Source of the DNA: SAR202 cluster bacterium
GTDB lineage: Bacteria; Chloroflexota; Dehalococcoidia; Lucifugimonadales; VGZY01
NCBI GenBank assembly: GCA_016872355.1
Contig: VGZY01000021.1
Span: forward strand, 1 to 40,974
Length of the DNA: 40,974 bases
Direction: 5' to 3'
Positions 24,640-30,705 of the stretch are shown here, in pieces. The translations under genes were made by a program, and so were the position numbers. The notes under the pieces are model-generated. The model did no database searches. It was given only the letters and a program-made list of their open reading frames with translations, and was not told where the DNA came from. Positions within the stretch are counted from its first letter, which is position 1. The number at the start of each line of letters is the position of its first letter.

Positions 24640-25366
24640 ATGCCCATTCGCAAGAACAGCCACCTCGCATCCATGCGCGCCGGTAAGCCATCGTCCAGAT
24701 GTACTTCCCCTCGGAGATCTTTGTTGAGCTGCTTGGCCTGGCCGGGGTGGATGTGGTCATGTTCGATGGCGAGCACGGGATATTCTCACCCGGCGAGTTG
24801 GACAGCATGTGCCGCATCGCCGAGGCGCACGGGATGTCTACAATCGCCCGGGTGCCGGATATTGGGTACGGCACCATCCAGACGTACCTGGACCGCGGCG
24901 TTCAGCGGATACTGGGCCCGGACATCCAGAACAAGGCGGACGCGCAGCAGCTTGTGAACGCCTGCCGCTACCCTCCCATCGGCAGGCGCGGCACGGGCGG
25001 CGCTCCGAGGGCGATAGGCTATGCGGACGTTGGCACGGCGGACATGCTCAACCAGCTCAACTCCGAGATATTCGTTTGCGCCTTCCTGGAGAGCGTCGAG
25101 GCGGAAAAGAACCTCGAAGAGATTATGTCCGTCCCGGGGATAGACGGCTACTATGTGGGCCCGGCGGACTACTCACTGTCTATCGGCGTCACGGGCCAGC
25201 TCACGCACCCCAAGGTGAAGGAGTTCTCCGACCGCGTGAAGAAGGCTGCGGAGTCGCGAGGAAAATATACTTCGGCAAGGACCTCATATCCGTGGAGCGC
25301 GCCACCAACATGGTGCTCAACAGCGCGAAGGACCTGGTGGCACGGAACAGGGCAAGGCCAGGCTAA
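24640..25366 (+). pseudogene. HpcH/HpaI family aldolase, with two single-base frameshifts
   Basis: The ATG at 24640 has GGAGG six bases upstream and starts MPIRKNSHLASMRAGKP, as family members do. The frame then fails: one base is missing at about 24688-24690. The rest of the protein (MYFPSEIFVELLGLAGVDVVMFDGEHG onward) lies in another frame, including the metal/pyruvate-site stretches GVQRILGPDIQNKADA and GIDGYYVGPADYSLS. A second missing base within the A-run at 25260-25263 moves the C-terminus (IYFGKDLISVERATNMVLNSA) to a third frame ending at TAA 25364-25366. Corrected, the protein would be about 242 aa and would cleave 4-hydroxy-2-oxoacid-type substrates. The middle frame runs on into the next gene, giving a false fusion. 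Confidence 0.85.
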
Positions 25367-26510: not shown

Positions 26511-26548
26511 CGGGGACAACCGGTCTGTATGCGCGATGGAGAATCACG

Positions 26549-27967
26549 ATGGCCCGCCTGTTGCTGTTTCCGCTGCTTCTTTTGTGCGCCCTGTCCATGG
26601 CCTGCGGTGTGGACGAGGAGCTCTACCAGGCTGCGCTGCTGGAAGCGGAGACCCTTCGCTCGCAGCTTGCAGTCGAGACGCAGCGGGCCGATGGCGCAGA
26701 GGCGACGCTGGCAGCGGAATCCGCCCGCCTGCAACGAGAGATCGATGAGCTGGTCGGACAACTCGAAGAGCGGGCCGGCCAGGTGGAGAGGCTAACGGGC
26801 GAGAACCGCGCTCTTGCCGGTGAACTGGACGCTCTTGGGAGCGAACTTGCCGGGCTGGAGGCGGCGCATTCCGTCCTCGAATCGGACCATCTGGCGCTCG
26901 GCGTCGAGCTGCAAGACGCCCGCGACGACATCGCGTCTGAACAGCGCAGGAACCAGGAGCTTACTGAGCAATTCGACGCGCTCGCGCTGGAGCACCAGGC
27001 GGCGGTGGCCTCCAACGCAACCCTGACTACGTCGCTCTCCGAGACTCAGACCGAACTGGCGCAAGCTTCAGAGGCCCTCGATTCCGCAACTATTGAACTG
27101 GAAGTGGCCAACTCTCTCTACGAAGCCCTTACAGAAGAACACGTGCTTGCCATAAAGGCCCGTGACGCCCTATCTACTGAGAATGCAGACCTGATTTCGG
27201 CGAAGGCCTCTCTCGAAACGGCGGTGCTTGAGCTAGCGGTCAAATACGACGGCCTTGTGGCGGACATCGGTGCGATAGAAACGCTGGGGAAGCGCAAGAG
27301 CACTCTCGCCGGAGAAGTCGTTGTGTTGGACTCGCAGGTCGTCTCGCTACGGCAAGACATAGCGCAGCTCGAGGAGCGCAGGCGGCCGCTGGTCGTCCAG
27401 TCGTACAGGAACAGCTTCCGCTGCACAGGCAGCATGGAGCCTAAGATAACCTGCCTGGACGAGGCGCTGTGGCTGTCCAATTTCAAGGCCGAGGATATTA
27501 CGTTAGGGGCAATAGTCTCCTTCTATCCGACCTCGGACTGCAGTATTACCTCCGGCCCTGTCGCCCACAGGGTAGTGGACATACGGTGGCTGGGCGGCGC
27601 GTACTCTTTCCGCACCAGAGGAGATGCGGCTGACGAAGACGACGGATGCTGGCTGCCGTCGTCCAGCATCAATTCCTACCTGATAGACCTGTACAAAAAT
27701 GTGCGCCCTGAGTACGCGGAGCTGCGGAACGCGGTGAACGCTGCGCGGGCCGATCTTGACGCGAAGGAGGCCGACTACCTGCAGAAGCTTCAGACCTACC
27801 AGCAAAAGCGGCTGCAGTACTGCGGCAGCCTGACGGGGACGTGCACGCTCTCCACCCCTCGCTATAATGAGATGCAATCGCTCTACCAGGCACTTGAAGC
27901 CGCATACAATGCGTACTCTGTCGCCTACTTCAACTACCAGGCGCTGATTGCCGTTGCGAAGGGATAA
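26549..27967 (+). CDS. Coiled-coil lipoprotein with an S26 signal-peptidase-like domain
   Basis: A 472-aa predicted lipoprotein: MARLLLFPLLLLCALSMAC gives a signal peptide and lipobox (Cys19). Residues ~22-285 form an almost unbroken Glu/Ala/Leu-rich coiled coil. Residues ~290-385 resemble S26 signal peptidases of the archaeal/SipW/ER type: CTGSMEPKI (Ser295), LGAIVSFYP, VAHRVVDIRW (His340) and FRTRGDAADEDDG (Asp359). That is the Ser-His-Asp set of S26B enzymes, placed after a lipoprotein coiled coil instead of a transmembrane helix. A second helical region fills residues ~390-472. Six or more cysteines in the domain suggest disulfides outside the cytoplasm. The ATG at 26549 is chosen for the signal peptide. 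Protease activity is unproven. Confidence 0.75.
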   Translation: MARLLLFPLLLLCALSMACGVDEELYQAALLEAETLRSQLAVETQRADGAEATLAAESARLQREIDELVGQLEERAGQVERLTGENRALAGELDALGSELAGLEAAHSVLESDHLALGVELQDARDDIASEQRRNQELTEQFDALALEHQAAVASNATLTTSLSETQTELAQASEALDSATIELEVANSLYEALTEEHVLAIKARDALSTENADLISAKASLETAVLELAVKYDGLVADIGAIETLGKRKSTLAGEVVVLDSQVVSLRQDIAQLEERRRPLVVQSYRNSFRCTGSMEPKITCLDEALWLSNFKAEDITLGAIVSFYPTSDCSITSGPVAHRVVDIRWLGGAYSFRTRGDAADEDDGCWLPSSSINSYLIDLYKNVRPEYAELRNAVNAARADLDAKEADYLQKLQTYQQKRLQYCGSLTGTCTLSTPRYNEMQSLYQALEAAYNAYSVAYFNYQALIAVAKG

Positions 27968-30103: not shown

Positions 30104-30439
30104 ATGCGTGAAACACTTGTTGGTCTCAGGACCGATAACAAACAGCTCGTTGGAGTGATAACTCTGACCGTCGAGTTCAAGCAGGAAGACGGCCAGTGGG
30201 TGGCCACGTGCCTTGAGCTCGGCACTTCAACGTACGCTGAAACGCTGGAGGCTGTTCAGGCGGAAATTGCAGAGGCTGTGGACCTGCACCTGAACGAGGT
30301 CGCGCGCCTGGGGTTCGAGGATGACTTTCTCAAGGAAATGGGCGTCCCGATGTGGCGACCCAGGCAGGTAGAGGTGGCAACCAGGCGCGGCACAGACAAG
30401 ACCAAGTCTGAGCCCTGGCTTGTAGGATCAACTACCTGA
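30104..30439 (+). CDS. hicB: HicB family antitoxin
   Basis: A 111-aa protein with the HicB fold: LTVEFKQEDGQWVATCLELGTSTYAETLEAVQAEIAEAVDLHL is the usual partial RNase-H-like antitoxin core. The C-terminal ~35 residues are basic and show no clear helix-turn-helix. AGGAGG precedes the ATG. The hicA gene follows after 11 bases. HicB neutralises the HicA mRNA interferase and often represses its own operon. Confidence 0.9.
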   Translation: MRETLVGLRTDNKQLVGVITLTVEFKQEDGQWVATCLELGTSTYAETLEAVQAEIAEAVDLHLNEVARLGFEDDFLKEMGVPMWRPRQVEVATRRGTDKTKSEPWLVGSTT

Positions 30440-30450
30440 GGAGCCGGTGA

Positions 30451-30705
30451 TTGGGCCGCAATGTTACCGGCAAACAAATGATCAGAATATTGGAAAAGGA
30501 CGGCTGGACGCGGGGCGGTCAGCGAACGCACGGAATCTTTTTTCACAAGCGTTATCCCGGAGAATCGTTGCCACGCACTGTGATTGTGCCGGACAAGAAT
30601 TCAGTGCTGCCGACAGGGACCCTGGGCGCCATACTCGGAGTAAAGCAGACGAAGCTCGGTAAGGATGGCCTGGAAGAAGTCATCGAGAAATACGGCCTAA
30701 AGTAA
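30451..30705 (+). CDS. hicA: HicA family toxin (mRNA interferase)
   Basis: An 84-aa protein of the HicA double-stranded RNA-binding-fold family. The N-terminus GKQMIRILEKDGWTRGGQRTHGIFFHK carries the catalytic histidine of the family; TGTLGAILGVKQTKLG follows. The TTG start at 30451 is supported by GAGGAG upstream; an ATG at 30478 would remove the first helix. Gene order is antitoxin first, the reverse of the commonest hicAB order. Both genes look intact. Confidence 0.88.
   Translation: MGRNVTGKQMIRILEKDGWTRGGQRTHGIFFHKRYPGESLPRTVIVPDKNSVLPTGTLGAILGVKQTKLGKDGLEEVIEKYGLK

Follow-up and report, generated by a model that had tools for sequence, protein, structure and literature searches.

S26B-type peptidase core on a predicted lipid-anchored coiled-coil stalk in a SAR202 cluster bacterium

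We describe a protein of 472 amino acids, encoded on the + strand at 26549..27967 of the window (the whole stretch of 40,974 nucleotides that was analysed; contig VGZY01000021.1 of SAR202 cluster bacterium assembly GCA_016872355.1), which combines a peptidase core of the S26B (Sec11-type) family with an anchor placed far from the active site. The gene is defined by its open reading frame and translation and by like-built relatives. The protein is read here as an S26B serine peptidase that is displayed on a stalk and acts on exported proteins of the cell surface, with a probability of roughly 0.55. Architecture and family are the firm part of this reading; surface display, disulfides and activity are suggested by anatomy and conservation, and the link to tagged surface proteins as substrates is a lead from a sister clade. 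The stalked family is apparently undescribed in SAR202-type Chloroflexota: a literature search joining signal peptidase, coiled coil and SAR202 found no paper, and to our knowledge the cell surface of these bacteria is little studied.

The core (residues 285-382; 27401..27694, + strand) belongs to S26B according to profile-profile, profile-to-PDB and AlphaFold/VIA comparisons. A Pfam search of the core gave no match; NCBIfam sigpep_I_arch matched at E 2.6e-7, under its curated cut-off, TIGR02228 (signal peptidase I equivalog) scored 30.6 bits, below its cut-off of 51.85, and the SipW model NF046067 matched at E 0.0017. The window protein found SEC11C at E 0.003 by phmmer, a profile of 31 relatives found SEC11C at 5e-13 and SEC11A at 6e-12, and hhalign gave 99.5% probability for the family profile against canonical S26B proteins of the same phylum. 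The profile search of S26 proposed with the original prediction returned S26B families, and a chance motif match is ruled out by the profile matches (2.6e-7, 5e-13, 99.5%) together with motif conservation in relatives. AlphaFold modelled core plus tail at pLDDT 92.6, and the predicted fold, compared by VIA, has the S26 beta-core, the lack of which was to refute the original prediction; the best S26 matches were SipA (4n31; Z 10.7), SEC11C (Z 9.5 over 99 residues) and SpsB (9.5). Foldseek alone gave nothing below E 0.001, with SpsB as its top match.

LexA/UmuD-type chains (UmuD', LexA) stood close behind the S26 matches in VIA. This shared fold superfamily, and the low AlphaFold confidence of stalk residues 232-256, would suit a self-cleaving device as in LexA/UmuD, in which the head is freed when the core cleaves the stalk or tail of its own chain. 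Such a device is very improbable here, since the catalytic type is Ser-His-Asp rather than Ser-Lys, and tether type and length vary so freely among relatives that no conserved cleavage site of the protein's own is apparent.

The SMEP, HRV and GDAADEDD motifs from which the prediction started stand at the places given for them. Ser295 (27431..27433), the predicted nucleophile, and His340 (27566..27568), the predicted catalytic base, are aligned with the Ser and His of SEC11; Asp359 (27623..27625) and Asp365 (27641..27643) are the first and the last Asp of the GDxxxxxD motif; all four codons are on the + strand. The S26B signature (SMxP Ser, HR His, GDxxxxxD acids) is present and aligned with SEC11, and all four residues are invariant in the homology-selected set, in the 31 relatives and in the 14 full-length relatives. 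Set A2 was picked by motif, so that its invariant Cys, Ser and GD are circular, and sets obtained by homology alone served in its place. A signature of Ser295, His340 and Asp359 had been claimed. Its three residues are conserved throughout the orthologues, but it is Asp365, not Asp359, that takes the place of the last Asp of SEC11 GDNNEVDD in the alignments, which we take to be the catalytic one (SEC11C Asp134). The S1/S3 pocket of SEC11A is formed by Met57, Phe61, Val52 and Val95 (PMC13385932). Their equivalents in the stalked family are, in this order, Met; Ile or Leu; mostly small or hydrophobic residues; and mostly Ala or Leu, so the peptide pocket seems to be kept.

SipA ranks with the closest structural matches (4n31, Z 10.7) and is essential to the polymerisation of pili although it has no catalytic residues (PMC4049620); like it, the S26 cleft might bind surface-protein tags and aid assembly without cutting. 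A non-catalytic assembly factor of this kind is nevertheless quite unlikely: SipA has lost its Ser and Lys, whereas every relative examined retains Ser, His and both Asp, a sign that catalysis has been kept.

The start codon ATG lies 38 nt past the upstream gene, with a Shine-Dalgarno-like GGAGA at 26538-26542, 6 nt upstream. A signal peptide (residues 1-18) is followed by the lipobox cysteine Cys19, the predicted lipidation site (26549..26605, + strand). Residues 9-19 (LLLLCALSMAC) match the PROSITE lipobox pattern, with a Ser at -3 that is not textbook; Lgt (E 1.7e-47) and LspA (E 3.9e-35) are encoded in the same genome. The protein thus has the N-terminal lipobox, and its genome the enzymes, of a bacterial lipoprotein, and it would be exported and anchored through a lipidated Cys19.

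Between the signal peptide, which is the sole hydrophobic stretch and lies about 275 residues before Ser295, and the core stands a coiled-coil stalk (26618..27382, + strand). Its hydrophobic period is 3.5 residues (z = 12.6; reached by 0/300 shuffles), and AlphaFold gives moderately confident helices at residues 24-242 and 250-278, confidence being low in stretches at both stalk ends. Drawn as one straight helix, an extended form that we assume, the stalk would measure about 38 nm, and for the catalytic domain a height of some 30-40 nm over the membrane is predicted. Lipobox, periodicity and the lack of a membrane helix near Ser295 bear out the proposed exchange of a transmembrane anchor for a lipid anchor and a heptad coiled coil of about 255 residues.

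The original prediction also noted a further helical tail and many cysteines. The tail is seen in the AlphaFold model as a C-terminal helical hairpin (residues 387-471; 27707..27961, + strand) with Cys425/Cys432 at the turn; in VIA it matched AcrA, colicins and other proteins, as any helical hairpin of a generic kind would. The cysteines are present and can be stated more closely: Cys13 and Cys19 belong to signal peptide and lipobox, and the others are Cys292/Cys302 flanking Ser295 (pair 1; 27422..27454, + strand), Cys331/Cys367 (pair 2; 27539..27649, + strand) and Cys425/Cys432, so that the mature protein would carry its lipid Cys and three pairs.

Topology sets the stalked family apart from canonical S26B proteins, which in this phylum have a membrane helix 8-25 residues before Ser and usually another after it. 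Rows for comparison comprised 29 canonical proteins with a readable motif and 36 distal ones, one of these a partial repeat (L015 of L010). A transmembrane helix shortly before Ser, and no Cys at -3/+7 relative to it, were found in all 29 canonical rows; the distal group has no such helix. The lack of a membrane helix adjoining the catalytic Ser rules out a canonical membrane-embedded S26B identity for the window protein. Both cysteines of pair 1 (at -3 and +7) are present in 34 of the 36 distal rows and both are missing in L043 and L044; pair 2 is complete in 30 and wholly missing in 6, and a lone Cys of either pair occurs in none, counts taken over homology-found rows that also had to match the GSM-P/HR/GD-D motif and that, being related to each other, are not independent events. 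Pair 2 is absent as a unit from one clade and pair 1 from another, as disulfides would predict. The genomes of L043 and L044, which lost pair 1 and kept pair 2, are small, at about 1.3 Mb (G144 and G147).

Among apparently intact members, tether length lies between 67 and about 300 residues. Heptad coiled coils make up the majority; Pro/Thr-rich linkers are found in five lipoproteins (L007, L031, L032, L036, L042), and L059 is anchored by four transmembrane helices. The coiled-coil members that are lipoproteins are the window copy and L030, most others having one transmembrane helix. That such different anchors and tethers arrive at one layout suggests selection for distance from the membrane. 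In one short relative (L015:299-724) the stalk is missing, and the anchor stands about 10 residues before the core. This relative has the same cysteine layout and is listed as distal only because that copy of the locus is cut; a stalked copy follows about 450 bp downstream of it in the same genome, G006, where there are six matches in all. The stalk is therefore not universal.

Taken together, these features would describe a Ser-His-Asp peptidase of the S26B (Sec11/SipW) type that is no longer seated in the membrane. The stalk would lift the catalytic domain, and two putative disulfides, 292-302 around Ser295 and 331-367 near the last Asp, would brace the core outside the cell in place of membrane helices. 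The hairpin directly after the core may pack against the stalk or serve to bind a partner. The predicted enzyme would act at the cell surface on exported proteins, either cutting them or cutting and rejoining them; ordinary signal-peptide removal, for which the genome encodes two other S26 signal peptidases, is not the proposed role.

The core profile matched 42 of 250 genomes of the order, at least 19 of them with the stalked type after inspection of the loci; among the loci examined in 400 genomes across the phylum, only canonical types were found besides the window itself. In a tree built on this short domain, whose deep forks are unsure, a branch with support 88/90 sets the canonical rows apart from the others. 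A scan of named genomes with an exact peptide pattern found relatives in Dehalococcoidia, SAR202 and Chloroflexota MAGs and in one Acidimicrobiaceae MAG. In the latter (L049:5251-7242, on a contig of 222,899 bp) the gene for a tagged secreted protein lies directly downstream of the stalked peptidase gene; the pair was possibly transferred between phyla, or the contig mis-binned. No relative was found in the viral contigs searched, by which a phage origin is ruled out.

Candidate partners come from the sub-clade without pair 2 (L050/G003, L053/G043, L055/G180, L052, L111/G181, L049). In 6/6 members a gene for a secreted modular protein adjoins the peptidase gene, with fn3, SWM/Ig-like, LRR and choice-of-anchor R domains among the encoded proteins. 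Where the N-terminus is visible (5/6; the neighbour of L052 is cut at the contig end and was recognised by its C-terminal part), these proteins have in common the motif FxLPxxLExGRPxP just after the signal peptide. In tagged proteins the motif starts 3-18 residues past the hydrophobic stretch and is directly preceded by an invariant Ala; none of the complete ones has a C-terminal membrane helix, and two have a weak internal hydrophobic stretch. Contig C21 of genome G181 (L114 + L115) holds ten tagged same-strand genes with the stalked peptidase gene among them; the proteins of this array are secreted, of 633-1607 amino acids, with fn3, SWM/Ig-like and LRR domains and the tag in the form FxLPxxLEQGRPxP. 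Strong matches to the tag profile were obtained in 5 of 247 genomes, four with the stalked peptidase and G228, in which a 5.4-kb fragment with a VWA domain carries the tag and the peptidase was not found. Because peptidase neighbours had served to build the profile, recovery of those genomes is partly circular, whereas absence elsewhere is not.

The neighbouring tagged proteins are likely partners of the enzyme in this sub-clade. Going further, the stalked enzyme could be part of a sorting system, in which it reads the N-terminal tag on varied adhesin-like proteins and cuts or joins them off the membrane, with other tags in other branches, that of the window included; we regard this as a tentative possibility. 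Rather unlikely is a SipW-like dedicated signal peptidase, in which the stalk is bent or lies flat and the enzyme works at the membrane, removing the signal peptides of a small set of partners. The catalytic type is that of SipW (NF046067, E 0.0017), SipW enzymes adjoin their exported partners (PMC7395162) as happens in the sub-clade, and the invariant Ala before the tag is as at a signal-peptidase site. However, the active site has no nearby membrane helix, whereas the membrane window and TM1 of Sec11A take part in signal-peptide binding (PMC13385932), and no use at the membrane surface is obvious for coiled coils as long as 259 residues. Literature searches on SipW-cognate signals and on the residue numbering of SEC11C found nothing useful, and those on Chloroflexi surface proteins nothing relevant.

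At the window, the peptidase gene lies between an HpcH/HpaI aldolase/pyridine nucleotide-disulphide oxidoreductase locus and a gene for an S15/CocE-type hydrolase. An operon partner is ruled out here, the neighbours being aldolase, oxidoreductase and hydrolase and the flanks differing in the nearest relative looked at. The tag had no match in the window genome, and neither the window nor most other branches have a tagged neighbour; adjacency to exported partners, as in SipW systems, was found in one other sub-clade only. The suggested maturation of surface or cell-wall proteins by the predicted enzyme draws independent support from the neighbourhoods in this one sub-clade and none from the window locus. 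Also in the window, the HpcH/HpaI aldolase gene (24699-25366) seems frameshifted, its apparent C-terminus lying in an other-frame open reading frame (24809-25366), which may be real or an assembly error; and at 30104-30705 a HicA-type toxin gene (PF07927; 30451-30705) follows a HicB-like small open reading frame (DUF7387, below cut-off).

The known S26B enzymes are signal peptidases embedded in the membrane. A whole family in which a stalk and cysteine pairs have taken the place of the membrane helices would demonstrate that the S26B fold is able to serve as a surface protease on a stalk. SEC11A/SEC11C and archaeal Sec11 are alike in core fold and Ser-His-Asp motifs but are embedded in the membrane, whereas the stalked family has a distant anchor, a long stalk, two cysteine pairs and a hairpin tail. 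Sortase and exosortase sorting systems offer a further comparison: the sub-clade likewise has one surface enzyme beside varied surface proteins with a common short signal, some of them choice-of-anchor proteins, but the enzyme family is unrelated, the signal is N-terminal, and the complete tagged proteins are without a C-terminal membrane helix. The adjoining tagged genes suggest a new way of processing or sorting cell-surface proteins, and if the association is functional it would be an N-terminal counterpart to sortase- or exosortase-type sorting. SipW with TasA/TapA or BsaA (PMC7395162) is also S26B, and the sub-clade gene likewise adjoins genes for matrix- or adhesin-like exported proteins; unlike SipW, the stalked family has no membrane helices at the core, its tag follows the signal peptide, and its gene is unlinked at the window. 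SipA of Streptococcus pyogenes (PMC4049620), the best S26 fold match (Z 10.7), uses the S26 fold in surface-protein assembly without Ser and Lys, whereas the catalytic residues of the stalked family are invariant.
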